A DNA stretch of 64,000 nucleotides, taken from contig CAMPDV010001786.1 in the NCBI GenBank assembly GCA_946699065.1, positions 1-64,000 of the forward strand. The letters are read 5' to 3'. The position numbers and the translations under genes were made by a program. The DNA comes from Loxodes magnus. Lineage: Eukaryota > Ciliophora > Karyorelictea > Loxodida > Loxodidae. The notes beneath the pieces were generated by a model. It had not been told where the DNA came from. It worked only from the letters and a program-made list of their open reading frames with translations, and made no database searches. This document shows positions 6,001-58,621 of the stretch, piece by piece (positions within the stretch are counted from its first letter, which is position 1; every line of letters starts with the position of its first letter).

Positions 6001-9000
6001 TATTTTGAATTTTTAAAATTTAATTTTTTCTCTCATTCTAAAACTACTTTTTCATTTCACACCTTCCTTCTAATTTACAAAATCACACTTTTACTCTTCT
6101 TTTTTTTTATTTTGCACTTTTAAAATTTACTTTCTTCTCTCATTCTAAAACCACTTTTTCATTTCACACCTTCCTTCTAATTTACAAAATCACACTTTTA
6201 CTCTTCTATTTTTTTATTTGCACTTTTAAAACTTACTTTTTTCTCTCGTTCTAAAACCACTTTTTCATTTCACACCTTCCTTCTAATTTACAAAATCACA
6301 CTTTTACTCTTCTTTTTTTTTATTTTGAATTTTTAAAATTTAATTTTTTCTCTCATTCTAAAACCACTTTTTCATTTCACACCTTCCTTCTAATTTACAA
6401 AATCACACTTTTACTCTTCTATTTTTTTATTTTGCACTTTTAAAACTTACTTTTTTCTCTCGTTCTAAAACCACTTTTTCATTTCACACCTTCCTTCTAA
6501 TTTACAAAATCACACTTTTTACTCTTCTTTTTTTTTATTTTTTATTTTGAATTTTTAAAATTTAATTTTTTCTCTCATTCTAAAACCACTTTTTCATTTC
6601 ACACCTTCCTTCTAATTTACAAAATCACACTTTTACTCTTCTTTTTTTATTTTGCACTTTTAAAATTTACTTTTTTCTCTCATTCTAAAACTACTTTTTC
6701 ATTTCACACCTTCCTTCTAATTTACAAAATCACACTTTTTGCTCTTCTTTTTTTTTATTTTGAATTTTTAAAATTTAATTTTTTCTCTCATTCTAAAACC
6801 ACTTTTTCATTTCACACCTTCCTTCTAATTTACAAAATCACACTTTTACTCTTCTTTTTTTTTATTTTGAATTTTAAAATTTAATTTTTTCTCTCATTCT
6901 AAAACCACTTTTTCATTTCACACCTTCCTTCTAATTTACAAAATCACACTTTTACTCTTCTTTTTTTTTATTTTGAATTTTTAAAATTTAATTTTTTCTC
7001 TCATTCTAAAACCACTTTTTCATTTCACACCTTCCTTCTAATTTACAAAATCACACTTTTACTCTTCTTTTTTTTTATTTTGAATTTTTAAAATTTAATT
7101 TTTTCTCTCATTCTAAAACCACTTTTTCATTTCACACCTTCCTTCTAATTTACAAAATCACACTTTTACTCTTCTTTTTTTTTATTTTGAATTTTTAAAA
7201 TTTAATTTTTTCTCTCATTCTAAAACCACTTTTTCATTTCACACCTTCCTTCTAATTTACAAAATCACACTTTTACTCTTCTTTTTTTTTATTTTGCACT
7301 TTTAAAATTTAATTTTTTTCTCTCATTCTAAAACCACTTTTTCATTTCACACCTTCCTTCTAATTTACAAAATCACACTTTTACTCTTCTTTTTTTTTAT
7401 TTTGCACTTTTAAAATTTACTTTTTTCTCTCATTCTAAAACCACTTTTTCATTTCACACCTTCCTTCTAATTTACAAAATCACACTTTTACTCTTCTTTT
7501 TTTTTATTTTGCACTTTTAAAACTTACTTTTTTCTCTCATTCTAAAACTACTTTTTCATTTCACACCTTCCTTCTAATTTACAAAATCACACTTTTGCTC
7601 TTCTTTTTTTTTATTTTGAATTTTTAAAATTTAATTTTTTCTCTCATTCTAAAACCACTTTTTCATTTCACACCTTCCTTCTAATTTACAAAATCACACT
7701 TTTACTCTTCTTTTTTTTTATTTTGAATTTTTAAAATTTAATTTTTTCTCTCATTCTAAAACTACTTTTTCATTTCACACCTTCCTTCTAATTTACAAAA
7801 TCACACTTTTTACTCTTCTTTTTTTTTATTTTGCACTTTTAAAACTTAATTTTTTCTCTCATTCTAAAACCACTTTTTCATTTCACACCTTCCTTCTAAT
7901 TTACAAAATCACACTTTTACTCTTCTTTTTTTTTATTTTGCACTTTTAAAATTTACTTTTTTCTCTCATTCTAAAACTACTTTTTCATTTCACACCTTCC
8001 TTCTAATTTACAAAATCACACTTTTACTCTTCTTTTTTTTTATTTTGCACTTTTAAAATTTACTTTTTTCTCTCATTCTAAAACTACTTTTTCATTTCAC
8101 ACCTTCCTTCTAATTTACAAAATCACACTTTTACTCTTCTTTTTTTATTTTGAACTTTTAAAACTTACTTTTTTCTCTCATTCTAAAACTACTTTTTCAT
8201 TTCACACCTTCCTTCTAATTTACAAAATCACACTTTTACTCTTCTTTTTTTTTATTTTGAATTTTTAAAATTTAATTTTTTCTCTCATTCTAAAACCACT
8301 TTTTCATTTCACACCTTCCTTCTAATTTACAAAATCACACTTTTACTCTTCTTTTTTTTTATTTTGAACTTTTAAAATTTAATTTTTTCTCTCATTCTAA
8401 AACCACTTTTTCATTTCACACCTTCCTTCTAATTTACAAAATCACACTTTTTGCTCTTCTTTTTTTTTATTTTGAATTTTTAAAATTTAATTTTTTCTCT
8501 CATTCTAAAACCACTTTTTCATTTCACACCTTCCTTCTAATTTACAAAATCACACTTTTTACTCTTCTTTTTTTTTATTTTTTATTTTGAATTTTTAAAA
8601 TTTAATTTTTTCTCTCATTCTAAAACCACTTTTTCATTTCACACCTTCCTTCTAATTTACAAAATCACACTTTTACTCTTCTTTTTTTATTTTGCACTTT
8701 TAAAATTTACTTTTTTCTCTCATTCTAAAACTACTTTTTCATTTCACACCTTCCTTCTAATTTACAAAATCACACTTTTTACTCTTCTTTTTTTTTATTT
8801 TGCACTTTTAAAACTTACTTTTTTCTCTCATTCTAAAACTACTTTTTCATTTCACACCTTCCTTCTAATTTACAAAATCACACTTTTACTCTTCTTTTTT
8901 TTTATTTTGCACTTTTAAAATTTACTTTCTTCTCTCATTCTAAAACTACTTTTTCATTTCACACCTTCCTTCTAATTTACAAAATCACACTTTTACTCTT

Positions 9001-11490
9001 CTTTTTTTTATTTTGCACTTTTAAAATTTACTTTTTTCTCTCATTCTAAAACTACTTTTTCATTTCACACCTTCCTTCTAATTTACAAAATCACACTTTT
9101 ACTCTTCTTTTTTTATTTTGCACTTTTAAAATTTACTTTTTTCTCTCATTCTAAAACTACTTTTTCATTTCACACCTTCCTTCTAATTTACAAAATCACA
9201 CTTTTACTCTTCTTTTTTTATTTTGCACTTTTAAAATTTAATTTTTTCTCTCATTCTAAAACCACTTTTTCATTTCACACCTTCCTTCTAATTTACAAAA
9301 TCACACTTTTACTCTTCTTTTTTTTTATTTGAACTTTTAAAATTTAATTTTTTCTCTCATTCTAAAACCACTTTTTCATTTCACACCTTCCTTCTAATTT
9401 ACAAATCACACTTTTACTCTTCTTTTTTTTTATTTTGCACTTTTAAAACTTACTTTTTTCTCTCATTCTAAAACCACTTTTTCATTTCACACCTTCCTTC
9501 TAATTTACAAAATCACACTTTTACTCTTCTTTTTTTTTATTTTGCACTTTTAAAACTTACTTTTTTCTCTCATTCTAAAACTACTTTTTCATTTCACACC
9601 TTCCTTCTAATTTACAAAATCACACTTTTACTCTTCTTTTTTTTTATTTTGAATTTTTAAAATTTACTTTTTTCTCTCATTCTAAAACCACTTTTTCATT
9701 TCACACCTTCCTTCTAATTTACAAAATCACACTTTTACTCTTCTTTTTTTTTATTTTGAATTTTTAAAATTTACTTTTTTCTCTCATTCTAAAACCACTT
9801 TTTCATTTCACACCTTCCTTCTAATTTACAAAATCACACTTTTACTCTTCTTTTTTTTTATTTTGCACTTTTAAAACTTACTTTTTTCTCTCATTCTAAA
9901 ACTACTTTTTCATTTCACACCTTCCTTCTAATTTACAAAATCACACTTTTACTCTTCTTTTTTTTTATTTTGAATTTTTAAAATTTAATTTTTTCTCTCA
10001 TTCTAAAACCACTTTTTCATTTCACACCTTCCTTCTAATTTACAAAATCACACTTTTACTCTTCTTTTTTTTTATTTTGAATTTTTAAAATTTAATTTTT
10101 TCTCTCATTCTAAAACCACTTTTTCATTTCACACCTTCCTTCTAATTTACAAAATCACACTTTTACTCTTCTTTTTTTTTATTTTGCACTTTTAAAATTT
10201 ACTTTTTTCTCTCGTTCTAAAACCACTTTTTCATTTCACACCTTCCTTCTAATTTACAAAATCACACTTTTACTCTTCTTTTTTTATTTTGAATTTTTAA
10301 AATTTAATTTTTTCTCTCATTCTAAAACCACTTTTTCATTTCACACCTTCCTTCTAATTTACAAAATCACACTTTTACTCTTCTTTTTTTTTATTTTGCA
10401 CTTTTAAAACTTACTTTTTTCTCTCATTCTAAAACCACTTTTTCATTTCACACCTTCCTTCTAATTTACAAAATCACACTTTTTACTCTTCTTTTTTTTT
10501 ATTTTGCACTTTTAAAATTTAATTTTTTCTCTCATTCTAAAACCACTTTTTCATTTCACACCTTCCTTCTAATTTACAAAATCACACTTTTACTCTTCTT
10601 TTTTTTTATTTTGCACTTTTAAAATTTACTTTTTTCTCTCATTCTAAAACTACTTTTTCATTTCACACCTTCCTTCTAATTTACAAAATCACACTTTTAC
10701 TCTTCTTTTTTTTTATTTTGCACTTTTAAAACTTACTTTTTTCTCTCATTCTAAAACCACTTTTTCATTTCACACCTTCCTTCTAATTTACAAAATCACA
10801 CTTTTACTCTTCTTTTTTTATTTTGAACTTTTAAAATTTAATTTTTTCTCTCATTCTAAAACTACTTTTTCATTTCACACCTTCCTTCTAATTTACAAAA
10901 TCACACTTTTACTCTTCTTTTTTTTTATTTTGCACTTTTAAAATTTACTTTCTTCTCTCATTCTAAAACCACTTTTTCATTTCACACCTTCCTTCTAATT
11001 TACAAAATCACACTTTTACTCTTCTTTTTTTTTATTTTGCACTTTTAAAACTTACTTTTTTCTCTCGTTCTAAAACCACTTTTTCATTTCACACCTTCCT
11101 TCTAATTTACAAAATCACACTTTTACTCTTCTTTTTTTTTTATTTTGAATTTTTAAAATTTAATTTTTTCTCTCATTCTAAAACCACTTTTTCATTTCAC
11201 ACCTTCCTTCTAATTTACAAAATCACACTTTTACTCTTCTTTTTTTTTATTTTGCACTTTTAAAACTTACTTTTTTCTCTCGTTCTAAAACCACTTTTTC
11301 ATTTCACACCTTCCTTCTAAATTACAAAATCACACTTTTTACTCTTCTTTTTTTTTATTTTGCACTTTTAAAACTTACTTTTTTCTCTCATTCTAAAACC
11401 ACTTTTTCATTTCACACCTTCCTTCTAATTTACAAAATCACACTTTTTACTCTTCTTTTTTTTTATTTTGCACTTTTAAAATTTACTTTT
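1..11490. repeat. Satellite array, about 107-bp unit, roughly 107 copies
   Basis: A head-to-tail tandem array fills the first 11.5 kb and continues past the left edge. Successive copies of the anchor ctctcattctaaaac lie about 105-110 bp apart, for example at 135 and 242. Each unit holds the same blocks in order: a TTTTG(C/A)A start, TTTTAAAA, the anchor, an ACTTTTTCATTTCACACC block, CTTCCTTCTAATTTAC, AAATCACAC, then CTCTTC and a T-run. Units differ by fixed variants: GCACTTTT or GAATTTTT, AACTTAC or AATTTAA, CCAC or CTAC, and T-run length. Runs of variants recur in the same order, for example 4380-4620 and 8340-8585, so larger blocks were duplicated. The written strand is nearly free of G. 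No coding frame or promoter is visible. Confidence 0.98.
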
Positions 11491-14400
11491 TCTTTCTTTC
11501 TATTATCTCAAAGTATTTCTCTATGATTTTTATTTTTTTTTACAAGTTTTTTTAAAAATTCTTTAAGTTTTTTTAAATATTTTAAATGATTTGTCTTTTT
11601 TCTTATTTAAAAAATATTTTATTAAAAATTTTCATTTTTTTTTTAATTTTTTTTCAATTTTTTTTTGAAAAGTTTCAATAAAATAAACTTTTATATTTAT
11701 TTTTGCCTTTTTTTTTGGATTTTAATTTTAAAATCTGAAAAATTTTAATGAGAATCATTTTTTTTTACTTGTTTATTTTTATTTTGTTTTCAATTTTAAT
11801 TAAGTGACTCTTAAAAGCCATATTTTTTATATTTTTTATATTTTTCTGTTACGACTAGTATTTTATTTTTTTTTTTAGTCGATTTTTAATACTTGCTTTG
11901 TATCATCATTTGAAGTTGCTTTTATTACTTTATGGCTGTAGATTTAAATCATATTTCCACTTCAATTGATGAATTTTTTTTAGATCTTTAAAAGGTAATT
12001 ATTAATTTAATTATTGTTGAATTTTTATTTTGTAATTACTAAGAAATTATTTTTTTGTATTTCTTTTATTTCTTTGTAAATAAATGAAAATATTTGCTGT
12101 AGATAAATTATCGATATAATTCTTTAAATTATTCATCCTATAATTTTCAAGAAACTATTTAAATAAAATATGCTACATATGATAATCTAGTTTGTTGCTA
12201 AAGCTGTTTTTTGCTTTTTTATTTGAAACTAATTTAGCTTTTTTATAGAAATTATTCAAATAACATAAATTTTTTCCTTTACTATCATTTCCTTCTTATT
12301 GTAAAATTTTTTCTAATTAATTAAATTTTAAGAAATTGAATTAATTCATTTTCAAATTTCTTATCAAATTTTTAAAGATCATATGTTCATGGATTTCTCA
12401 AAACTAGTTATTACATTTATATGAAGCAAATAGCAAAAAATTTTTTCTAGTTTTTAATAAGCATTTTACCAATCAAGTTCATTCATTATTTCATATGATA
12501 TTAAAGCAACAGTTTCCTTATAAAAATTTCTTAAGTTTTCTTTCTTATTATCTTCGTTTTGAATAACGTTAAATATCTTCAAAATTACTTTAATCCTAGA
12601 TATTTGAATTTTATATTTTCAAATCCTTAAGAAAGCCTTATTCATAATGACAATATATTGTATTAATATTTTCAAATTTTTGAAAATTTTGAAAATATTA
12701 AATACTATTATTTTTTTTAAATGATTTATTGTCCATTTATTTTTATTCGATTATCATTTCTTATATTTCATCATTTATTAAAGAGTGTGATGCTACGCAT
12801 AATTTCTTTCTTAAACTATTTTAAGTTATTGCTAATGTATTCGTTCTTTCTATATTAAGGGGAAAATTAAATGGTCTGACAGTCATGTTTTATAAATATT
12901 TAGGTAAAAATTATAAAATTTTATATAATAGCTTAATATTAATGATAGGTAAATATCAATAAAAAGTAGCTCTACCACAGATAGTTGTATACTTAAAATA
13001 TCCATTCTTTAAATAAAATTACTTTTATTTATTAGGTATTTTTAGTAATCTTAAATTGCCTTTTTCATAGTAAGTTTATTGTGAATTCATAAATGTCAAA
13101 ACTACCTCTCTAAGCTTGATAAAAATTGCTTATTTTTAACAAAAACTAAAGTTCTTTAAAGTAATATTGAAAATATTTCAGCTTATTTATTGAATTCACA
13201 CAAAAAGCAATCATTATTAATTATTTAAACAAGATTATAAAACTTGCCATCATATATTTGCTTAACTCTTTCTAAAAAATAAAAATAATAATTAAGTTAG
13301 TTTTTTTTAAATATAGGACTAAATTAATTTAACAAAAGCAATAATTGCATTGACAGCTAATTACTAAAATCAATAAGATTTCAATTATATTAAATAACTA
13401 TAATTAACATAAACCATTGAAAAAAAGTCTTCGATTTATTAAAGTGGAAATTTTTTACATATAAAATCACTTTATTTTTAATATTCTAAGATTATTAAGT
13501 TATAGAAAATCAAAATTAATGATTCTTATCGTAAATTAATAGGAAAATAAAGAAAAAGCATTTCGATCTTAGCGTATTTTGATTTTTTAAGATAAAAATT
13601 AACAAGAAATTATAAAAAAGTATGTAAAAATTAAGAAATATCGATGAAATAAATATTTATCATAACATTTGTAATAATCGTTTTATATTTTAGTAGCAAT
13701 CTCTAATTAATCAAACAGGAACAGTGATAATAATCAAATATCATGATAAAATTTGTAATATTCTTGCTAATTAAGTTTTTGTTTCTTAATTTTTTCATAT
13801 CTTTTATCTTTGAAGTTCTAGATAATTTTTGAGTTATCTTTGTATTTCAAAATTGCTTTACTTTGTCATTATAATAACTTTTAGATGAAGACCAATCAAA
13901 GTTAAAAGTAATAAACATAACATAAACTTCATGTTTTTCAAAAGTGAAGATTTTTAAGTATTTATTTTAACAAAGTTCAATAGTAGCACATTTGAAAAGC
14001 AATAAAATTAAAATCCATCTGGTCTAAAAGTAGAGCGAATAAAATTGTAATTATTATACTTTAAACTTAAATTTAAGTATAATTTTTAAGGATTCATATT
14101 TATTAGTTCTGACAAGGAAGAGCAAGAGAGTATAAATACATCGGGAATTTAAAATTTAATTACTTGAGTTAATATACATATAAAGTAAACGTCTTTTTTT
14201 ATTTTTAGATATAAAAATTTTATACTATTGAAATCAATAGATTGTTAGTGTAGACCCATCATAATTCAAAAGTTCCTTTTATCTTACAAAAATTAGAATT
14301 AAAAATGAAAATCTCATTATGAGTTAAATGATGAAAAGTTTGATAAAAACATCATTTAAATGCTAGAAATGTAAATTCATTAGGGTTACAATGGTTGTAG

Positions 14401-15685: not shown

Positions 15686-18600
15686 TCAATTTATTTAGGA
15701 CTTTGCACTTAGCAGCCCAATAAGGGAGTCCAGTTTTAATTCAAGCGAGTCCATCTTTTTATCGATAGAACAAGTTTGAACTTTAAGAAGTTCAACTTCT
15801 TTCAATTTCTCCTCAATAGAATTCATCTTTCCATCCATAGAGCTTGTTTAGGTCTTAAGAATTTCTATTTCTTTCAATTTCTCCTCAATAGAATTCATCT
15901 TTCCATCCATAGAATTCATCTTTCCATCCATAGAATTCATCTTTCCATCCATAGAATTCATCTTTCCATCCATAGAATTCATCTTTCCATCCATAGAACT
16001 TGTTTAAGTTTTAATATTTTCTATTTTTTTTGCTGTTTTCTCAAGAGAATTTGATGTATTATTTTTTCCTTCATGAGATTCTATTTTAGTAATCTTTCCT
16101 TCAAGATTATCTAATTTCTTTGAGTTTTAATCAATTTTTTCGTTTATTTTATCTTCAGTCTTTTTGATGCACTCTCTTACATCGGCAACTTTTCCTTCCC
16201 ATCCAAAACCTTCTTCTTGATAGTAATTATCGCAAATATGAAGATATTGATCTTTATTTTCTGGTTTTCATAATGAAGTGATCTGTTCTATCTCAAGAAG
16301 AATTGAAGTCTTTTCTCTATAGTCATAATAGACTTGCTAAATTTAAAACTCATCAAAGGAATCTCCTAGAATAGAGATTATCATATTAAGCATTATAACT
16401 ACATTTAAAATAACAGCTAATAGGAATGTGATATACATTATATCCAATCCTTCCCTATCAAATTCTCCTGATTCTCCTGTTATCAAATCAAAAGATGAAA
16501 TTCATAAGCTTTTAAATGAAATTTCTTCACCTTTTGCTGTAATATATAGAAGGCCAAATGCTAGTGTGGTGTAAACCATTATTGCAAGGAAGTATCTTAT
16601 TCTGTAAAAGGAATCTAAAATCAGCTTTATGTAATATCTTGTTTCGTCAAATGATCTAAAAGCCGTAATTCCTCGTAATACGTTCAGCAGTAGAAAAATT
16701 CAGTTAAATGTTTCTATTTAGATATCTAAAGCGCAGAAAAATATCCATGGAACTATACAAATTATTCTAGTAATATCAATTATATTCCAAGCATCCTTAA
16801 AATAGTCTAATCTAGTTACTTTAATTTAAAGAAATTCCCAAGCAAGCAAGCAAGCATTTATTAGCACCAATAAAATCAAGGTAAGGTAAAAAAAGCAAAA
16901 AGGCTGAATTATCAAAGTGACAATAAGGAATAAATTAAATCATATCAAGCAAGAAAAACCAAAGATTACATATCATAAGCTATTTCACTTTAAATTAATA
17001 TAACTTCTTATTATTTTATGTTTGTATAAATCTTTATCTTTAGAGTCCAAGAAGGATTTCAATAATTCAAGGCTTTAAGCAGATCCCACAACAGAAGGAA
17101 ATTGGAATCAAGATGTAGATATTTTAAGATGTTATTTAGATTATTCGTCAATTTGAGAAATAGTTTCTGGAGATAAATTTTATTAACTAGTATTTTATTA
17201 TTAGTTAGGTAAAGAACTTTGCTATTTAAATAACTCAAAGCTTTAATCAGCAAAATCAGAGAATTTAATACGTTAATCAAACTCAACATAAAGAAATTAT
17301 CGCAGTTTTTTGTTGAAGTAAAGAATGTTGCTAAGTAAGTTGTTTAAAAAAGTAGAAGAATTGCGTATAATATCAGTAAAATCAAGTTATAAAGATTAAT
17401 AAGTATTTCTTGCGACCATAAAGTCAATTTCTTCAAGTTAATAAAAGTATTCCAAGAGTAAATCAGTAGTACTTTGATGTTAATAAAATATCGAGTAAAA
17501 AAGAGGCGAATGACCGAAAATATCAGCAAGTAAAGATATTTAGGTTTCTTTAAATACTTATTTAAAAAATTAAGTCTATCCTAAATAGCAACAAAAATGA
17601 AGAGGGGTGAATAAAAAATAAGTAAACTAGCAATTTCATGTCGAAAAAAATGCAAAGTTTCCTAAAAGCAAACTTTATAAAGTAGAAACTATGTTGAGCA
17701 TAGAATCATATTATAAAGGAATAAAATAAAGGTCAAACAGAAATAAATATCTAGAAGTAGATTTTGGAAAACTTGAAAAGAGTTAAGAAAATCGAGAATA
17801 AAAAACCGCAAGATTCCAGAATTTGATAGTATTATCATCTGAGGAGCTAGCGAGAGTATTTCCATCAGGACTGAAGGTAACGTTGTTAACAGAATTTGAA
17901 TGTCCTTGTAGAGTGGTAATTTCTAAATGAGTTTGTAGATTTCACAGTTTGATAGTTTTATCTTATGAGGAGCTAGCGAGAGTATTTCCATCAGGACTGA
18001 AGGTAACATTGGTAACACAATCTTTATGTCCTTGTAGAGTGATAATTTCTAAATGAGTTTGTAGGTTTCAGATCTTGATAGTTTTATCTTATGAGGAGCT
18101 AGCGAGTGTATTTCCATCAGGACTGAAGGTAACGTTGGTAACACAATCTTTATGTCCTTGCAGAGTGATAATTTCTAAATGAGTTTGTAGGTTTCAGAGT
18201 TTGATAGTTTTATCTTATGAGGAGCTAGCGAGTGTATTTCCATCAGGACTGAAACTAACGTCTGTAACAGAACTTGAATGTCCTTGTAGAGTGATAATTT
18301 TTTGATAAGTTTGTAGATTTCACAGTTTGATAGTTTTATCTTATGAGGAGCTAGCGAGTGTATTTCCATCAGGACTGAAGGTAACATTGGTAACAGAACT
18401 TGAATGTCCTTGCAGAGTTATAATTTCTTGATGAGTTTGTAAATTTCAGAGTTTGATAGTTTTATCTTATGAGGAGCTAGCGAGTGTATTTCCATCAGGA
18501 CTGAAACTAACGTTGGTAACAAAACTTGAATGTCCTTTTAGAGTGATAATTTCTTTATGAGTTTGTAGATTTCACAGTTTGATAGTCTCATCTCTTGAGG

Positions 18601-20489
18601 AGCTAGCAAGAGTATTTCCATCAGGACTGAAGGTAACATTGGTAACAGAACTTGAATGTCCTTGCAGAGTTATAATTTCTTGATGAGTTTGTAAATTTCA
18701 CAATTTGATAGTTTTATCTTATGAGGAGCTAGCGAGTGTATTTCCATCAGGACTGAAGGTAACATTGGTAACAAAACTTGAATGTCCTTTTAGAGTGATA
18801 ATTTCTTTATGAGTTTGTAGATTTCACAGTTTGATAGTCTCATCTCTTGAGGAGCTAGCAAGAGTATTTCCATCAGGACTGAAGGTAACGTTGTTAACAG
18901 AACTTGAATGTCCTTGTAGAGTGGTAATTTCTAAATGAGTTTGTAGATTTCACAGTTTGATAGTTTTATCTTATGAGGAGCTAGCGAGTGTATTTCCATC
19001 AGGACTGAAGGTAACATTGGTAACACAATCTTTATGTCCTTGCAGAGTGATAATTTCTTGATAAGTTTTTAAGTTTCAGAGCTTGATAGTTTTATCTTAT
19101 GAGGAGCTAGCGAGTGTATTTCCATCAGGACTGAAGGTAACATTGGTAACACAATCTTTATGTCCTTGCAGAGTGATAATTTCTTGATAAGTTTTTAAGT
19201 TTCAGATCTTGATAGTTTTATCTTATGAGGAGCTAGCGAGTGTATTTCCATCAGGACTGAAGGTAACGTTTGTAATTCATTCTTTATGTCCTTGCAGAGT
19301 GATAATTTCTTGATGAGTTTGTAGGTTTCAGAGTTTGATGGTTTTATCATATGAGGAGCTAGCGAGTGAATTTCCATCAGGACTGAAGGTAACATTGGTA
19401 ACATAACTTGAATGTCCTTGTAGAGTGATAATTTCTTGATGAGTTTGTAGGTTTCACAGTTTGATGGTGCTATCATATGAGGAGCTAGCGAGAGTATTTC
19501 CATCAGGACTGAAGGTAACGTTGTTAACAGAACTTGAATGTCCTTGTAGAGTGATAATTTCTAAATTAATTTTTAGGCTTCACATTTATAGTTTTATCTT
19601 ATGAGGAGCTAGCGAGTGAATTTCCATCAGGACTGAAACTAACGTCTGTAACAGAACTTGAATGTCCTTGTAGAGTGATAATTTATTTATGAGTTTGTAG
19701 ATTTCACAGTTTGATAGTTTTATCTTATGAGGAGCTAGCGAGTGTATTTCCATCAGGACTGAAGGTAACATTGGTAACACAATCTTTATGTCCTTGCAGA
19801 GTGATAATTTCTAAATGAGTTTGTAGGTTTCACAGTTTGATGGTGTTATCATATGAGGAGCTAGCGAGAGTATTTCCATCAGGACTGAAGGTAACGTTGG
19901 TAATACAATCTAAATGTCCTTGTAGAGTGATAATTTCTTGATAAGTTTGTAGGTTTCAGAGCTTGATAGTTTTATCTCTTGATGAGCTAGCGAGAGTATT
20001 TCCATCAGGACTGAAGATAACGTTGGTAACAGAACTTGAATGTCCTTGTAGAGTGATAATTTCTTGATGAGTTTGTAGGTTTCAGAGCTTGATAGTTTTA
20101 TCATATGAGGAGCTAGCGAGTGTATTTCCATCAGGACTGAAGGTAACGTCGGTAACATAACTTGAATGTCCTTGCAGAGTTATAATTTATTTATGAGTTT
20201 GTAGATTTCACAGTTTGATAGTCTCATCATCTGAGGAGCTAGCGAGTGTATTTCCATCAGGACTGAAACTAACGTTGGTAACACAATCTTTATGTCCTTG
20301 CAGAGTGATAATTTCTAAATGAGTTTGTAGGTTTCACAGTTTGATGGTGTTATCATATGAGGAGCTAGCGAGAGTATTTCCATCAGGACTGAAGGTAACG
20401 TTGGTAATACAATCTAAATGTCCTTGTAGATTTTTTTGGTTTTAAAATTTAATTTCTTAGAATTTTTCTATAAATGTATTTTGTAACAT
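15686..20489 (-). CDS. WD40-repeat cation channel (polycystin/TRP-like) with coiled-coil tail
   Basis: This is a membrane cation channel of the voltage-gated/TRP/polycystin superfamily with an N-terminal beta-propeller region. From ATG 20,489 ([10 protein letters not shown]) come 21 WD40 units (residues ~35-885) of pattern [24 protein letters not shown] soluble linker follows. Membrane segments (residues ~1165-1375) include [14 protein letters not shown], an S4-like segment with [13 protein letters not shown]5 ([15 protein letters not shown]), a pore loop and S6 ([19 protein letters not shown]), which strongly resembles polycystin-2 and TRP S6 ends. A heptad coiled coil closes the protein, probably for subunit assembly, and the TGA at 15,686-15,688 follows the sequence SQIN. 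The frame is consistent except for two missing bases near 19,585 in one WD unit; restoring them gives exactly 1,602 codons. That may be an assembly error or a real break. Ion selectivity cannot be read from the sequence. Confidence 0.88.
15897..16001 (-). repeat. 21-bp minisatellite coding a heptad (MDGKMNS) in the coiled coil
   Basis: About five perfect tandem copies of a 21-bp unit encode the seven residues MDGKMNS. One more copy sits alone near 15,830. A seven-residue repeat keeps coiled-coil phase, so expansion or loss of units would lengthen or shorten the C-terminal rod of the channel without changing register. Confidence 0.9.
17830..20430 (-). repeat. 21 near-identical 126-bp WD40-coding units
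   Basis: The SFSPDG core recurs every 126 bp (42 codons) from about 20,384 to 17,866, which is 20 intervals or 21 units. Units are nearly identical at DNA level; they differ mainly in AGTGTA/AGAGTA and in the segment just after the core. Twenty-one units would fit three seven-bladed propellers. The high identity points to recent unequal exchange or gene conversion. One unit near 19,585 is two bases short. Confidence 0.93.
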
Positions 20490-47434: not shown

Positions 47435-49002
47435 TAGCAAAATATGAAATCTGGTCTAATCTACACTAATATAAAATTGCAAATATAATTACTTTCAAAT
47501 ATAAGAAAGATCTATAACATTAAAGTCTAATAATTTTAAGAAGAAGAAATTAACATTTAGAGCATGTGTTATCATATCACTTCAATAGAATAAATAACTT
47601 CAAACGATTTAGTTATATCAGGATCAAAAAATATTGAATAAAATAATTTTATTATATATATAAAAAATGGTATCTAAGAAAGCAAAGACCTCTCCAACAA
47701 AATTTACCAATTAACCTGACCTTTCTAACGACTTCTATTTACTGCAATTGGATAATCAGAAGCTAGCAAAAGAAGTGTAAGATCTTAAATAAATAACTTA
47801 ATCTCTAATGCTAACAATCAACAGATTGTTAAATGAATAAAATCCTAAAGAAAAATTTAAATAATAGACATCTTCTTAAAAGATGTAAAGATAAATTACC
47901 TAAATCGAATGGAATCTAAGACTAAACTTCGACCAAAGAATTAGTTAATTAGAGCAAATCAAGATTAACTAATGTTCTAATCCAAAATCAAGAGGAGTGC
48001 AGAACAAGTCACTTTCCTATCAGAAAATAGAAAAAAGATGTTGATATTGTAAAAAATATGGTCACAAGGTAAATCAATGCTATAGATTCAAGAGTAAATA
48101 ATATGAAGAAACGAAGAGAGGAATTTAAAATTTATTTAAGATTTATTGTACACCAAACGGAATTTTATACTAGAAAAAAAGATTTTAACCTTACTAAGAA
48201 GCTCCAAAGATTACAGATGCACTAAGACGATATAAGAGATGACAAGTAGGATTTGATTTCCAAGCACAAAATAGAGGATAAAATAAACAATTTATAAGAA
48301 TTTATGATCCGGAAAAACCAGATGAATATGACATTGAAGAATTTTGATTTGGATAAACTTTTACAAACTCTAATTTCCTGACTAACCAAATAAAGGTGAA
48401 GTCACTTTAATAAATTATGTTATGTTATATATTCTAAAGATAAAGTTGAGAATTATTAGATATAATTTCAAAGGTACTTCCACAAAACTAAATCCAACAA
48501 GAGAAACTTAATTTATATATTATCTGGGAAATATGACGATTGTATATTTGAGTGTGAAGTTTTCGATATAAACAATAAAAGTTTTAGAAACATTTAGACT
48601 ATACGAAATCAAGTAAATCTTTTTGGTTGCGATTACAGTTATTAAAAATTTATATTTTTGGAAGTTGAAACTAAAAAAAAGGAGGCTAAGATACAATATA
48701 GATATTCGATTATAGAAGAAACGAATGAAATATACGTGACTAAGTAATAATAAAAAAAGGTAGAAACTTCTGCTATTTTCATTCCTTAAATATAGTCTTA
48801 TTTTATTTTCTCTAATCTAAATTCTATAGATACTTAGATATTCGATTTTAAAATAATATAAGTTAAAGGTTAAAAATATCCATTAAATTGATTAAGTGAT
48901 TATATTTAGCCAATATGAAGTGGGAATCTAGTTTATTAATACAGAAGTGATGATTAACTATTAAGTTACGATTTAAGAAGTGAAAAGTGGACTAAACTTT
49001 GA
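47435..49002 (+). pseudogene. Kelch-like paralog A, interrupted by a zinc-knuckle ORF
   Basis: It is homologous along its length to the intact kelch gene at 57,707-58,621: left part 47,435-47,650, right part about 48,430-49,002 (CEVFDINNKSF, VNLFGCDYSYQKF, then VYQYRSDDQLLSYDLRSEKW). The conserved TGA is at 49,000-49,002 and similarity to the sister stops there. A ~0.78-kb segment carrying the zinc-knuckle ORF lies inside it where the sister gene is continuous. A further single-base loss occurs in the A-run before the FGGW kelch motif. Clearly not functional as a kelch protein. Confidence 0.8.
47667..48347 (+). CDS. Coiled-coil/CCHC zinc-knuckle protein 1 (gag-like), inserted in kelch copy A
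   Basis: The 226-residue frame opens MVSKKAKTSPTKFTN, continues through Gln-rich coiled coil (LAKEVQDLKQITQSL) to a CCHC knuckle CWYCKKYGHKVNQC (C-x2-C-x4-H-x4-C), then a basic linker and an acidic end (YDPEKPDEYDIEEF) before TGA 48,345-48,347. CCHC knuckles of this spacing bind single-stranded nucleic acid and occur in retroelement Gag and LINE ORF1 proteins as well as host RNA-binding proteins. The Trp of CWYC is written TGA. The closest relative in the window is the gene at 54,631. It splits a kelch paralog, so the segment arrived there secondarily. No reverse transcriptase, protease or terminal repeat is seen next to it. Confidence 0.72.
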
Positions 49003-49284
49003 GAGTATTAAGTACATTTAGAGATTTTAATAGAGAATAGATTTACTCTAAATATTTTAAGTATAAGTTTTATCAAAATTATTTATATAAAAAGAGTAAT
49101 TATTTCAAATTTGTTTGAATCTTCAATGTCTTTAGTATTGATGAAATTAAGATTAATTTTCTTGATTTATTTCTTTAGGTCAAATCCCAACCATTTTCTA
49201 TTGAACTCATTATTAACTTATTAGAAATAGGGAAATTCTTTGTTTTACTTGGCTTAGTTTTTTCCTTAAAGTAAACTTTCACTT

Positions 49285-51498: not shown

Positions 51499-52387
51499 AT
51501 GTATCTCAGGAAAATCATAAGAAGATTATAAACGTTTGATAGAAATTTAATTTTTGGTAGATTTGGTTTAGGAGTCGTTAAATAAGAAATTTGTGCAGGT
51601 ATTAGAGAAATTCCATAATACCATAATGTATCCACTATATATAAAAATACGAGTAAAAGGTAAACTTATTCGATAACCTCTTAGAAGATTAAAAGTAAAA
51701 AGCTAAATATAGAAAAGATTGATTATCATTTCCCTTGGATAGAATAAATTTATGAAGATACTTTGCTAATTTCAGGTGCTAAGAATATCAATCAAGATAA
51801 ATTTACTGTTTATTCTGATTAAAAAGTAGATAATTTTTAAATGCTGTTTAAGAGGTATTTTCATAGAACTAACTACAATAGAAAAATAAGATTAACATTA
51901 TTTCAGGATAAAGTCGAGAGGAAATAGATATACCAAGCTGTGAAGTTTTCAATATAAATACCAAAACTTTCCAAAGCATATAATAAATTCTAACTCCAGT
52001 ACATGTATTTGGATGTGATTCATATGATTAGAAAGTTTATGTATTTGGAGGTTGGAATCTTGAAAAAAGTGGCTAAAATAGTATATAGATAATGATAACA
52101 ACAGTGATGTATGAGTGAAAAGTATTTAGATAATAACTAAAAAAGTATAAAATACAGCTATCTACATTCCTTACCAACATTTTTTTCTTATTTATGCAAA
52201 TCTTAACGCAATAGAAACTCAAATATTTGACTTGAAGCAAATAAACATCAGAGGTTAATAATATCCATATATTCTTGGAAGCGACTTTACCAAACCAGTT
52301 TTAAGCAAAAATGTAGTATATTAATTTAGGAGTGATAATTAATTACTCTTCTACGAATTGAAAAACGAAAAGTGGACCAAAGTTTGA
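51499..52387 (+). pseudogene. Kelch-like paralog C, frameshifted
   Basis: It aligns with the intact kelch gene from MYLRKIIRRLQTFDRN to the end: LLISGAKNINQDKFTVYS, CEVFNINTKTF, VHVFGCDSYDQKVYVFGGW, TQIFDLKQINIRGQQYP, VVYQFRSDNQLLFYELKN, then the conserved TGA at 52,385-52,387 after KWTKV. The Trp of FGGW is TGG here. Two single-frame changes (near 51,890 and 52,115) break it. The true start may lie slightly upstream of the ATG at 51,499. Confidence 0.72.
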
Positions 52388-52929
52388 AAAACTCCTTAAA
52401 TTATTTATTTTTTTAATAAAGTAAACAAAAAATTTTTTTTAATTCAAAGAATTTCATAAAATAAAAAATCACAATATCACTAGTACAATAGTATGAAGCT
52501 TACTAGTAAAAAGGGTTATAGTTTAAATAAGTTTGATACTCTTATAGTTATATTTTTGTTGTATTTTATTTACTATGCTATTTCATATTATAATTAATGT
52601 ACTAATACTAAAAAGTTTTTGATGAGCCTTCTAAATCATTATTTAGCATACCTTTTTAAGATCACAACTAATTAATAAAAGAAAACTTTATCAATCAAAA
52701 TTGTTATGCCTCACTTGCTAAACTATTTCTATGAGTTTTGGATCGCTGAGTTCTTAATTGATTCTGACTTATTAAATACAATACTATTAATAGATTTTGA
52801 TTTCTATTACTTTCAATGTGCTAGCAACCTATTTTTTTCAATCTCTTAAGAAAAAATTAATAAAAACATGAATTTTGTCTAAATTAAGCAAGCATAAAAA
52901 TGCAAGCAGAAAGCAATTTAATAAGTATT

Positions 52930-54237
52930 CTTTATCTTAGAAAGATCTTAAGGTAACTTCCATTTACTAAAGAAAGCTAAATTTTAGCAAAGCTTGGTAT
53001 AGGAAATTTAAATATGAAATATGTTATAATCTTTGATATTAAATGGATCTATTAAGTATAATTACAATGTGATTGAATACTAATGTCAAAAAGAATTATA
53101 GCGTTAATAATTAAAATTTACAGAAGAGTTAACTAATATCAAAGAGATTGATATTTATAATATTTTTATAGAGCAAACTTCAGAAGATGCTTTAATAATA
53201 CCAGGAGCTTAGAATATTCAATAATAAAGGCTTATTATTCACTCCAGTAATAATAATAAGATAAAAAAGTTTCAATACTTTGATTATTGGGACATTACTG
53301 CACTACTTATAATTATATTTCATGCGAATTATGTTAAGTATAAGAGTTTATGTAGGTTTATAGTCAACCTCTAGTTAATTCTTCCTGCTCCTGTTCTTTT
53401 GTTTCTTCTATGTTAGTTATAATATGTGTTGATGAAAATTTTTAAAGTATTTGCCAATCTTAGGGATTTTACTTTTTATAAAGTTTGAATTAATATAATT
53501 TTAGTAATACATAATTAGTTTTTTATAATCTTTTTCATAAAGTGTTTTTCGATTAGATAATTCCTAGCAGACATTTTTATAGAAAGTACATTCAAATATA
53601 TGATTAAGTTCGTCATAGCTAAACCACATGCCCAATCAATCCCATTTTATGTGTTTATTGACGCGTACCCTCTAGTAATAAAATTGGAAATTATGAGATG
53701 TAACATAAAAAATATTTTTCATAAGACTAGATTCAATAAAAGTTGCTTATATTTTATCAAAAGCATATTAATTAAGCAATAGAGAAGAGTGTAAGATCTT
53801 CAATACAAGTACTAAAATTTTAGAAACATCGAGAAGATTAAAGAACCAGTGTTTATTTTTGGATGTAACTAAGCTAATAAATATTTATACTTTCGGAGGA
53901 TGAAATTTTGAAAAAATATGATTAAAATTTAATTTAAATGTATGATTAATTAAGAAAAGAGTGAAATATAAGTAACTAAGTAATAACTAAAAAGGTTTAA
54001 ACTTCTGCTATTTTTATTCCTAAACTATGATCCTTTCTCATATACTCTAATAACAATTCTATTGATACTCAGATATTTGATTTTAAGGAAATAAAAATTA
54101 AAGAAGAGAATTATTCAGTAAGTAGATATGTTGATTATACTTAGCCATTATTAAGTAGAAGTATAGTTTTCTAATATAAAAGTGATAATGGATTATTTGG
54201 CTGCTATATAAGTAGTGAAAGATGGATTGAACTTTGA
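52930..54237 (+). pseudogene. Kelch-like paralog B, interrupted and degraded
   Basis: Homology to the intact kelch gene begins near 52,970 (ILAKLGIGN; compare ILSKFGIGI in the intact copy). It continues at 53,170 (EQTSEDALIIPGAQNIQ), breaks at about 53,285, resumes near 53,670 (NIFHKTRFNKS, compare YFHKTKFNKR), shows a kelch core TFGGWNFEK near 53,890 and ends at the shared TGA 54,235-54,237. About 390 bp of unrelated sequence sits inside it. Several frame changes occur in the last third. Confidence 0.62.
53285..53670. other. About 390-bp insert within kelch paralog B
   Basis: This segment has no counterpart in paralogs A, C or D. It has no long ORF, tail or terminal repeat that I can identify. 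Its ends are approximate because the flanking kelch sequence is diverged. Confidence 0.45.
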
Positions 54238-54598
54238 GAGCTTTATATCAAATAACTCTTATATTCCTATTAATTAATTAATTCTGAAATAGATATAGTT
54301 TCATATGAAGGTATATATATTAAAGCATCTCTTTATAATTTACAAAGCTAACTTTTTAGTTTGATTAGCTAAGTTTTGCTAATGTAAACTTATTTTGCGT
54401 GATTAAGCAATTATTTGCATATGGAAGAAGTTTAAAAGCTAAGCACTGATAATCTTTATTTTATTAATCTTGCAAAGCCTTGAAAGTCATTTGAAGGATT
54501 TTAAATTTATATAGTGATCGTCTAGAATTAATTGGATCATAAGAAGATAGAAAAAGGTTATTTAAACTGGATCTATTAGATATTAGAATAAGAGTTAA

Positions 54599-54615
54599 AT
54601 TATTGAGAGAGGAGT
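54599..54615 (+). repeat. 17-bp direct repeat, left copy
   Basis: attattgagagaggagt occurs here and at 55,463-55,479, bracketing the zinc-knuckle gene 2. It resembles a target-site duplication. Confidence 0.9.
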
Positions 54616-54630
54616 AAAAAAAAAAAAAAG

Positions 54631-55470
54631 ATGGAGCAGAACATTAGATTAAATAAAAATCAAATAAGAAATGCTCGGAAAAAGGCTGCTTAAGTTCTTC
54701 GATAAAAAGCAAAACAATAAGAAGAATCAAGCTCCGACTCATAAGGTAAAATAATGATCGGAACTTTGCAAGCTGAGGAATTTAAATCAGATATTTCAGA
54801 GGAACTACGACAAAAGATCGAACAAATGTAAAAAATTATATCCCGATACGAAGAAACAATATATAATTAAGACTTATTAATACGGGAACTTACAACAAAC
54901 ATTGACGTGCAAAATAATGAAATGGAAATCCTTAAGAATCAGCTAATAGAAAACAAGGTAATAACGGAAGAACAACTTTGAATGTAATCGCAATAAAAAT
55001 CTTAACGTACATCAAAGATGGAAATCGAAAAAACTTTCACTCCATTATAAAGTGTTTAAGAACAGAAAGAAATTAGATATGATAATAACTTAATTAAAAG
55101 ACTAGAAAATATTGAAAATAAGCTATTTAAAAAACATATTAGTCAAAAGAAGATTAAAAAATAATGTTGATATTGCCAATCCAATTACCACTTATTAAGA
55201 AGATGCTGAGAATGAAAAAAATTAAATGAAAAGGTATAATAAAGAACATGAAGAGCATTGAATTTTCTATGGATAACTCCAACAGGAATATACAAATAAA
55301 AACTGCCTATGCGCTCTTTTGAAAGCAATCAGTGGTAACCATCCACATAAAAAAAATGGTCGCGGTATCCATCCGAGTCAAAAAAATGGCGGCAGGAACT
55401 GGTTGAAAGTCCAGAATATGCCAAAACATTTTTTTAACATTTAGTTTACTATTATTATTATTATTATTGA
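54631..55470 (+). CDS. Coiled-coil/CCHC zinc-knuckle protein 2 (gag-like), intact
   Basis: An uninterrupted frame of exactly 280 codons runs from ATG 54,631 to TGA 55,468-55,470. In order: a basic N-terminus (NQIRNARKKAAQVLRQKAKQ); an acidic/Ser stretch; a long coiled coil (residues ~55-110, EELRQKIEQMQKIISRYEE, ENKVITEEQ); a CCHC knuckle CWYCQSNYHLLRRC near residue 177; a Trp-rich basic tail (KKWSRYPSESKKWRQEL); and a poly-Tyr end coded by a (TAT)n microsatellite. It is the relative of the ORF at 47,667: both have CWYC with TGA-coded Trp and a T-P-x-G-I/Y motif downstream. It probably binds RNA or DNA and oligomerises. A poly-A run lies directly before the ATG. Domesticated Gag/ORF1-like gene or short mobile unit; host RNA-binding protein is the alternative. 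Confidence 0.75.
55320..55380 (+). repeat. Imperfect 30-bp tandem duplication inside zinc-knuckle gene 2
   Basis: ggtaaccatccacat plus an A-run and atggtcgc is followed by a diverged copy beginning ggtatccatccgagt. In the gene's frame the two copies give KKW-containing, Ser/Lys-rich segments. This patch is GC-richer than its surroundings. Confidence 0.7.
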
Positions 55471-55479
55471 GAGAGGAGT
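55463..55479 (+). repeat. 17-bp direct repeat, right copy
   Basis: A perfect copy of the repeat at 54,599-54,615. It overlaps the terminator of zinc-knuckle gene 2. Confidence 0.9.
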
Positions 55480-55499
55480 TTGAATATAGTAGATAGAAA

Positions 55500-56480
55500 G
55501 TGCATATAAAATAAAACTTAAAATACTTATTAAAGATGTAACTAATCAAATTAGTGAAAAGTATAAGGAAGAATAAAGGATTCATCTATCTTCAAAGAAA
55601 TAGGATTAAATGGAATAATTAATTATTAACAACAAAAGCATCTTTACATAGGCATATTCTACCTCAGAAGAAAACTTCGAAAATAGGTAAAGTCAGATTT
55701 CCATTAGCAAGCATTTGAGATCTTTACAAATGAAAAATTAAACTTTAAGCAGATAATAAAATTAATATTAAAATTGCAAGAAGAGATCAAGAATTTAAAG
55801 GAAAATGTAAGATATATGGAATACTTTAGCAAATAGAAAGAAATAAATATATGTCTTAGGAAGATATTTAAAAGTCTTATGAAGTGAGCAATAAAACAAA
55901 ATAGTCAATCTATATCCAACCTTAGAAGATAGAATTACAAATTTTATAAATAAATAGAAAATTAAACATTAAAAAGAAATATCTTACTAATTGAAGGACA
56001 AGTCAATCTAATATATATAGAAGGTAATTAATTTCTAAATTAGAAAAGGAGGAAGAAATAATTCTAAAAATGTAATTTAGCGAAAATATCTATATAGGAG
56101 ATGCAAAATGTTTTTGACATCCAATGAAAAAAAATAAAAAGCGACTAGAAAAAGTAAAAAACATTAAAATATAATAATGAAGAAGAACAAGGAGAGAATA
56201 AGAACAGCTTTACTTCAATAATCTAGGAGAAGTTTATAGAAATAAAACATTTACTTAAAAATAAAAATAATAAAGATTAAAAGAATAATATAATATATAA
56301 GTAAGTATAATAAGATTAACAAAGGAAAGCTAATTATCAAGAGAACTAAATAAGATTTTAAAATATTGGAAAAAGACTTTTTAAATATTTATTTTGCCTC
56401 CAGACAATGGAATTTAGTTTAAACGAAGTAGAAATTCCTTCAAACAGAAATACTAGCCACTATACTACCTCGGATCTTAT
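55500..56480 (+). pseudogene. Probable third, degraded coiled-coil gene of the zinc-knuckle type
   Basis: It opens with a soluble frame (DVTNQISEKYKEEQRIHL, then MEQLIINNKSIFTQAYSTSE) and after a frame change gives a coiled coil (LQEEIKNLKENVRYMEYFSK near 55.8 kb). Near 56.11 kb comes KCFWHPMKKNKKRLEK, at the position where the relatives carry the knuckle, but without the C-C-H-C set. A weak C-terminal match to the gene 54,631 may follow. It starts directly after the right 17-bp repeat. Confidence 0.4.
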
Positions 56481-56577: not shown

Positions 56578-56651
56578 GCCTCCGTAGCTCAATAGGTTAG
56601 AGCGTTTGGCTGTTAACCAAAAGGTCGGTGGTTCAAGTCCACCCGGTGGCG
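56578..56651 (+). tRNA. tRNA-Asn (GTT)
   Basis: A complete cloverleaf: acceptor GCCTCCG/CGGTGGC with one T-T opposition at the fourth pair, D arm GTAGCTCAATAGGTTAGAGC, anticodon stem TTGG/CCAA with loop CTGTTAA giving anticodon GTT, and T arm with GGTTCAAGTCC. A and B boxes fit RNA polymerase III. No intron and no encoded CCA. Confidence 0.95.
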
Positions 56652-57385: not shown

Positions 57386-57706
57386 GAATAAGAAAGTTGT
57401 GGTATTTTTCTTCATTTTTTCTTCCTCATCTTTTTCTTAGAGGTTATGTAAAAGCACTTTTTGAAAATTCTATCATTAAAAAGATTAAGCCTAATTATAA
57501 AATAATTATAAAACTACTTTAATTTTAAATTATTAAATCATTTTATATTAAATTATCACATATAAACCTATTTATTGAACCATTTTTAATGATATTCTCC
57601 CTTTAAACATTTTAACTATTTCTTCCATAAAAATGTTTATAATATTTAAATTTAAAATTTTAGATTAGTAATGTACTTTATTAAAGTCTAAATGTATTTA
57701 TCTTTC

Positions 57707-58621
57707 TCAAAGTTTAGTCCACATTTCACTTCTTAAATCGTAACTTAACAGTGAATCATCACTTCTGTATTAGTAAACTAGATTCCCACTTCATATTGGC
57801 TAAGTAAAATCACTTGAGCTATGTACTGGATATTTTTAACCTTTAACCTATATTGTTTTAAAATCGAATATCTAAGTATCTATAGGATTAAGATTAGAAT
57901 AAATAAGATAAGATTTTATTTAAGGAATGAAAATAGCAGAAGTTTGTACTTTTCTTGTTATTACTTAATCACATATATTTCATTCGTTTCTTCTTTAATC
58001 GAACACCTATATTGTATCTTGGCCTCCTTTTTTATTATTTCAACCTCCGAAAATATAAATTTTTTAATAACTGTAATCGCATCCAAAAAGATTTACTGGG
58101 TTTTTAATTGGCTAAATGATTCTAAAACTTTTGCTTTTTATATCGAAAACTTCACACTCAAATATATCTCTTTTTTATCTCCCAGATAATATATAAATTA
58201 AGTTTCTTTTATTAAATTTAGTTTTGTGGAAGTATCTTTGGAATTACATCTAATAATTCTAAATTTTATCTTTGGAGTTTATATCGAATCTCTTTCATTC
58301 TATACTATGTGAGCCAGATATTACTAAAGTATTCGAAGTTATTTATTCTATTGAAGTAGCATGATAATAAAGGCTTTGTGCATCAATTTTCTCTTCTTAA
58401 AATTGTTTGGCTTTAATGTTATAGTTCTTTCTTATATTTGAATTATATTTAAAAGTAACTATATCTGTAAAGTTTTTTAGATAGCTTAGATTTGAGCAGA
58501 CTTCATATTTAACAATTCCTATTCCAAATTTAGATAGAATTTAGATATCTTGATTACATTAGATTGATCTTAAAAGTTTTCTAAGGTAAAGGATTTTAAT
58601 GCATTAGTTTTCACTTAGCAT
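57707..58621 (-). CDS. Kelch-like repeat protein (paralog D, intact)
   Basis: An uninterrupted frame of exactly 305 codons runs from ATG 58,621 (MLSENQCIKILYLRKLL) to TGA 57,707-57,709. After a soluble N-terminus come kelch-type blades: LVISGSHSIEWKRFDINS, LIYILSGR with CEVFDIKSKSF, VNLFGCDYSYQKIYIFGGW followed by QVFDQRRNEWN, TQIFDFKTIQVKG, and VYQYRSDDSLLSYDLRSE ending at KL. Kelch blades form a beta-propeller used for protein binding; the partner is unknown. Four Trp (EW, GGW, NEW, IW) are TGA and many Gln are TAA/TAG, yet the last TGA ends the family alignment. Three broken paralogs lie on plus at 47.4, 51.5 and 52.9 kb. The LINE ends only about 60 bp upstream of the ATG. Confidence 0.85.

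Follow-up and report, generated by a model that had tools for sequence, protein, structure and literature searches.

A family of gag-only, SINE-sized elements in the Loxodes magnus genome, probably retroposons mobilised in trans

The window, by which we mean the whole stretch of DNA analysed (64,000 nucleotides of Loxodes magnus, C1786:1-64000), contains a small element at positions 54616-55462. This element, here called A, is ~0.85 kb long (about 850-852 bp), carries one ORF and belongs to a dispersed family. Its features, together with those of related small elements, are listed in Table 1. Coding frames at this locus require TAA and TAG to be read as glutamine and in-frame TGA as tryptophan, which is the karyorelict code. 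Under this code (table 27), the A ORF has an ATG at 54631 and its frame stays open into the tail. An earlier note on this DNA had described an 840-bp ORF with its stop in the right-hand repeat. The open frame is there, but the TGA within the right repeat is not A's own stop and the remainder of that ORF is read-through into the tail and host DNA. The same note held that the unit codes only for a coiled-coil/zinc-knuckle protein and for no polymerase, which agrees with the single ORF in the unit.

Table 1. Features of element A and of related small knuckle elements. Positions are those of the window; locus names are given for elements found elsewhere.
Feature	Position or locus	Strand	Remark
Left target-site duplication ATTATTGAGAGAGGAGT	54599..54615	+	own duplication in 44/44 distinct insertions
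5' A-run, 14 A in window copy	54616..54629	+	length differs between near-identical copies
Gag-like ORF, 225 codons to conserved GIYKQKL	54631..55305	+	table 27
Long predicted helix, residues 57-129, coiled-coil candidate	54799..55017	+	AlphaFold
CCHC zinc knuckle CWYCQSNYHLLRRC	55165..55206	+	its W encoded by TGA
Conserved ITPTGIYK stretch	55267..55296	+	weakly predicted beta-hairpin (strands 213-216, 219-222)
3' hairpin H1, GTGG-7 nt-CCAC	55332..55346	+	
3' hairpin H2	55361..55377	+	
3' hairpin H3, CTGG-TTGAAAGT-CCAG	55391..55422	+	outer stem, internal loop, inner stem as given
3' terminal sequence closing in (TTA)n tail	55423..55462	+	
Right target-site duplication, 17-mer ATTATTGAGAGAGGAGT again	55463..55479	+	
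A-type 3' end, H3 + TTTAGTTTAC(TTA)n			expected of a partner LINE
Element K inside kelch-labelled copy A	47650..48425	+	boundaries approximate; ORF from 47667
K 3' hairpin	48378..48405	+	matches 3' hairpin of resident LINE
Family E, small knuckle element in flanks	L051, L018		
Family C, small knuckle element in flanks	L069, L056		
Family G, small knuckle element in flanks	L073, L021		
Family K, small knuckle element	window, L006, 12 fetched copies		
Small knuckle element fragments	L058, L036		

Elsewhere in the window, tandem arrays occupy positions 1-11502 (unit about 107 bp, copies about 95% alike) and 17811-20433 (unit about 126 bp, copies about 88% alike). Related stretches at 47440-49086, 57627-58510, 51939-52423 and 53678-54240 are labelled kelch, a term that serves as a label only. 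Two of them are inverted copies, 86% alike over 48426-49086, and one of these two holds the K insertion. The other kelch-labelled stretches are 66-73% alike, and the nearest one upstream of A stops about 360 bp short of it. A tRNA-Asn (GTT) is located at 56578-56651, 1.1 kb downstream of A. At about 60.4 and 63.2 kb, on the - strand, are LINE remnants of the L069 group, with an RT region and the ORF1 knuckle CYLCKLKRHTDQQC.

The perfect 17-bp direct repeats that had been noted on either side of the gene are present at 54599-54615 and 55463-55479. The first 6 bases of ATTATTGAGAGAGGAGT could equally be part of the (TTA)n tail, so that the duplication in the window measures 11-17 bp. These terminal direct repeats are site duplications that differ from site to site and are not LTR-type repeats of the element's own. 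Terminal inverted repeats were not found in A, where a single internal 12-nt pair was present, and a search of Rfam over 54500-55600 gave no match at E≤1. The tail at the right end varies mostly by TTA units. The left A-run varies too; the lengths recorded for other copies may be one too high, as the pattern tolerated one mismatch. Polymerase slippage is our guess as to the cause of the A-run variation. The variation of the right-end tail by TTA units, the direction of the ORF and one 5'-truncated copy suggest that the RNA corresponds to the + strand, in which case the A-run would be its 5' end and almost the entire 5' leader. The poly-A run had previously been taken to lie at the wrong end for simple LINE-style copying on this strand. 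The data do not support this objection: it is the right-hand (TTA)n that forms the 3' tail, and the unit starts with the A-run.

To find further copies, the genome (705,730,643 bases, 706 Mb) was searched with the element. The best 40 of 2409 candidates were scored and all were 99-100% identical. Patterns for the two ends, with one mismatch allowed, detected 176 right and 158 left A ends genome-wide, counts that include some insertions present on two contigs; the reversed-pattern controls gave 0. The similar numbers of right and left ends suggest that most A copies are full length. Consistent with this, 29/30 right-end matches were essentially full length and 1/30 was 5'-truncated; locus L068 is a 5'-truncated A copy. 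The recent spread of A has brought it to well over a hundred sites. An assembly artefact is ruled out, as the copies are on many contigs and each has its own flanks. The window and contig C511 are identical over 3881 bases at A, and were therefore taken to hold one insertion on two contigs.

We fetched 68 loci, which gave 44 distinct insertions; another 22 fell at sites that were already represented, and two were dropped, one being 5'-truncated and the other outside the pattern used by the script. A duplication of at least 10 bp was observed at 44/44 distinct insertions, and one of at least 12 bp at 43/44. In the null set of mismatched left/right pairs, the corresponding numbers were 106/1892 and 12/1892. 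This comparison of flanks, which the earlier note had proposed, rules out chance repeats. The duplications were 11-18 bp in 43/44 insertions, the shortest call being 11 bp (one insertion), and the single call of 30 bp sits in repetitive flank. At the target, base -1 was A in 86% of cases and bases 0 to +2 were A/T in 98-100%, against a background of 75% A+T, the excess at 0 to +2 coming partly from overlap with the tail. Duplications of 15 bp were also observed in both copies first found of a related subfamily, B.

Empty sites, another check that had been proposed, were sought by joining the flanks of seven insertions with one duplication kept and searching the genome with the result. Uninterrupted junction matches (best 100, 99, 97, 98 and 98%) were present within this genome for 5/7 insertions; several of the tested flanks are repetitive, and these empty sites are paralogous or allelic. 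For the remaining 2/7, no empty site was among the best 40 matches listed. A therefore shows the variable-length duplications, 3' tail, 5' truncation and empty sites of target-primed insertion. Single-copy genes without flanking repeats are excluded within this genome, and the near-identical dispersed copies with their duplications bear out the initial view of a very small, recently copied mobile unit.

The AlphaFold model of the A protein is of low confidence as a whole (mean pLDDT 58), with values of 82-86 over residues 61-100. The order along the chain is a long predicted helix, the CCHC knuckle, a helix and the short ITPTGIYK stretch. Pfam gave nothing over curated cut-offs for the A region or protein, and PDB sequence and Rfam searches gave nothing below E=0.8. 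A profile comparison of A/B with families K, C and E gave a 95% probability over 48 residues comprising the knuckle and ITPTGIYK, with 2-3 sequences per side in this and the other profile comparisons. As the match covers those 48 residues, it is in the knuckle and ITPTGIYK that elements outside the A clade resemble it. To determine the constraint on the protein, substitutions were compared between and within subfamilies. A versus the B copy B35 gave a dN of 0.46 and a saturated dS of 3.1, with a ratio of 0.15, while the shifted frames gave 1.4 and 1.1. The ratio was 0.21 for B20 versus B35, and synonymous sites were past saturation for A versus B20. Within A (18 unique sequences less one that was too distant), 32 synonymous changes were counted versus 8 nonsynonymous ones, a tally that counts a shared change more than once and is drawn from the copies that best match the window copy. 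Across subfamilies, pN was lower than pS over the knuckle-to-GIYK stretch in 131/134 pairs, compared with 65/134 and 74/134 in the shifted frames. This set comprised 17/21 sequences, four with a poor or absent motif match being left out, and two near-identical pairs were skipped. The gag-like ORF of the A clade is under purifying selection.

The 3' module of the A clade consists of H1, H2, H3 and the tail. In an alignment of 21 rows (L125 and L126 left out), pairing in H1-H3 was kept in 91.3% of cells compared to 28-44% with slid partners; 18 of the rows were taken by the exact pattern of the H3 inner stem, so that this stem cannot vary. Covariation in H1-H3 was not above that of shuffles. The H3 stem of family E differs, with GAGG/CCTC around the same TTGAAA loop. 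The pattern CCTGGTTGAAANNCCAGG (H3, stem CCTGG) had 1087 exact matches in the genome and its reversed control 0. From the 100 matches listed, 20 H3 loci were fetched, chosen to span loop variants. Their translations revealed a gag body upstream of H3 in 20/20 loci, recognisable in 19 and a frame-broken remnant in L120, and an intact in-frame CCHC motif was kept in 11/20. Sorted by eye, about eight subfamilies (A, B, D and about five from the H3 loci) share the gag body and the three-hairpin 3' module.

The TTGAAA loop of H3 holds a UGA. It is in the frame of the ORF in 14/22 loci whose motif is readable (a 23rd locus has none), namely 5/6 B copies, 5/5 of the L107 type, 2/2 D copies tested, L116 and L118. 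A, L111, L112, L114, L115, L117, L119 and L123 have it out of frame. Reading on from the conserved motif, the first UGA met is that of the loop in the L107 type and in those B copies that have it in frame, but an earlier one in D, L116 and L118. Passages of PMC11441545 report that a UGA acts as a stop in L. magnus when it is close to the poly-A tail and that 3'-UTRs have a mean length of 53 and a median of 41 nt. On these grounds, the H3-loop UGA is a candidate stop in the subfamilies that have it in frame.

Other small knuckle elements include families G and K. The G copy at L021 has two knuckle-like motifs, the first one decayed. The G copy at L073 (rc about 1400-2200) follows immediately on a LINE 3' end and closes in a K-type hairpin. 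At least 40 near-full K copies, the window copy included, are 91-100% identical, and the left boundary of K in the window is uncertain by about 20 bp. The earlier note had regarded K as a relative inserted in a kelch copy. K does break up a stretch that has an inverted, uninterrupted paralogue in the window, but no duplication above the null was found there or in 12 sister copies (13 copies, one mismatch allowed). One copy each of two LINE groups showed no clear duplication. The K substitution ratio was neutral at 0.68, 0.67 and 0.66 in the three frames, as would be expected of dead copies.

A 3' hairpin with the core CCAAATAAAGGT ends K, one G copy (L073) and a LINE, in which it was present in 6/6 copies read (L070, L083-L087). 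In 12 distinct rows of this hairpin, 91.7% of cells pair compared to 25-45% when slid, and 0/500 shuffles reach either 91.7% pairing or nine doubly changed cells. Three pairs have changed on both sides, a number that 303/500 shuffles reach. The doubly changed pairs represent one LINE-versus-K difference rather than repeated events, and two K rows break one inner-stem pair. The shared 12-base core in the same place is a plainer argument for the link between K and this LINE than the double changes. The core and the hairpin at the 3' end suggest that K and G probably use the machinery of the L070/L083-L087 LINE.

For A, a LINE with an A-type 3' end was sought among the RT matches, of which the best 150 of 3403 candidates were scored. 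The sequence 3' of the RT was read for 14 LINEs outside the L070 group (L069, L071-L077, L088-L093) and six within it (L070, L083-L087). None of these 20 LINE 3' regions carried H3 at its end. Of the 14 outside the L070 group, 12 end in one other hairpin type, and L072 and L091 have neither type. L072 does have one H3, on the opposite strand and within a small gag element. An Exo_endo_phos scan gave 617 candidates, of which the best 150 were scored. Since no H3-carrying LINE was found among the regions read, we only infer that A is mobilised in trans. According to passages of PMC11441545, the repeats of L. magnus fall into 915 families, most of them unclassified. Complete LINE families number at least two in that account, rnd-1_family-27 and -19, which are 5-6 kb long with RT and endonuclease. 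The two LINE groups found here presumably correspond to these. Two contigs, C20 and C5131, have RT matches of identical score at a spacing of 2532 or 2504 bp, which are LINE pieces in tandem arrays. We had also considered that family C ends in the 3' hairpin of the other LINE group. This was dropped, as the similar stretch is internal and C runs on for about 150 bp.

The small elements could instead be HAL1-like deletion derivatives of an RT-bearing LINE that had this protein as its ORF1, the parent being rare or extinct. HAL1 provides a precedent, in passages of PMC5322556, and a third LINE clade could lie outside the best 150 of 3403 RT matches. The ORF1s of two LINE families, read from one copy each and 30% identical to each other, also both carry a knuckle. 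However, these ORF1s are of another type, with a profile match of 0.3% to A/B and of 8.9% to K/C/E, the latter over the knuckle only. A description of them as RRM-like was dropped, Pfam giving nothing over cut-off. Furthermore, 0/20 H3 loci had LINE sequence in place of the gag body, and the subfamilies read are all gag-only. We consider an origin by deletion unlikely.

Processed retrocopies of an ordinary host gene, recently amplified, would also have duplications and near-identical copies. However, several long-separated subfamilies each hold the frame under constraint, the 3' hairpin module is conserved along with the subfamilies, and the tails are (TTA)n and not poly-A, which makes this origin very improbable. 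A DNA transposon or MITE would likewise be short and dispersed with target duplications, but is barely credible given duplications that vary (11-18 bp in 43/44), ends that differ (A-run and (TTA)n) with no terminal inverted repeats, and the 5'-truncated copy L068.

We favour the reading, at a probability of about 0.82, that A is a gag-only, SINE-sized non-autonomous retroposon that is mobilised in trans and works in a manner like HAL1 or HeT-A. This reading accommodates the copies, duplications, empty sites, tail, protein selection and conserved 3' module observed for A. The intermediate would be an mRNA with the 5' A-run, one ORF, the 3' three-hairpin module and a TTA end. Its translation would produce the coiled-coil/zinc-knuckle protein, which would bind in cis, probably coating its own RNA. 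A LINE-type endonuclease/RT, supplied in trans, would nick an A/T-rich site, and the RT would then prime on the 3' end to give a mostly full-length insert with a duplication of about 15 bp.

A typical SINE is non-coding and derives from a pol III gene product, whereas A codes for a protein under selection. Stringent-type SINEs have LINE-like 3' ends and are short and mostly full length with a microsatellite tail. A is likewise short and mostly full length with a microsatellite tail, and K and one G copy share their 3' hairpin with a resident LINE. HAL1, as described in passages of PMC5322556, codes only for an ORF1-type RNA-binding protein, has target-site duplications and depends on LINE RT/EN. 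A too codes for an ORF1/gag-type protein without RT and has target-site duplications. In contrast to HAL1, which derives from L1 ORF1 and ends in poly(A), A has a protein with no match to the ORF1s of the two LINE families, a (TTA)n tail, hardly any 5' leader in a unit of about 0.85 kb, and many persisting subfamilies. HeT-A of Drosophila, according to passages of PMC5537684, is a non-LTR element that codes for Gag, is without RT and needs the enzyme from elsewhere. A also codes for a gag-type protein without RT. However, HeT-A joins chromosome ends in head-to-tail arrays, while A was found at 44 dispersed sites with duplications, 11-18 bp long in all but one. Like the LINEs described in passages of PMC11441545, A resides in a genome with abundant non-LTR elements, but it is 0.85 kb long and without RT or endonuclease. 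Since the tail, the relation of the protein to LINE ORF1 and the target differ, we do not claim that A is a member of HAL1 or HeT-A. The earlier statement that no element of this form had been described was nevertheless too strong, as HAL1 and HeT-A are ORF1/gag-only and comparable in their working. In the open literature searched by keyword, we met no description of such units in ciliates; the words SINE, nonautonomous, zinc and gag are absent from the main text of PMC11441545, and no passage on Dictyostelium TRE5-A as an ORF1-only parallel was found in PMC4559204.

More tentatively, and at somewhat less than even odds, these elements may represent a separate long-lived SINE-sized lineage that has its own gag-like RNP protein, not from LINE ORF1. 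Such a lineage would ride different LINEs by means of different 3' hairpins, which are of LINE type in K and G and form the H1-H3 module in the A clade. In the several subfamilies with an in-frame UGA in the loop of the last hairpin, a single structure may act as both stop codon and RT-recognition signal.

Retroposons that are not autonomous often lose coding capacity, whereas here a gag-like gene is retained by purifying selection in several subfamilies in parallel. This suggests that the element benefits from the protein it encodes, and it raises the testable question of what a gag/ORF1 protein brings to an RNA that already relies on the enzyme of another element. In L. magnus, which passages of PMC11441545 report to undergo no extensive genome editing, the genome also hints at how small parasites come to bear the 3' signals of different LINEs.
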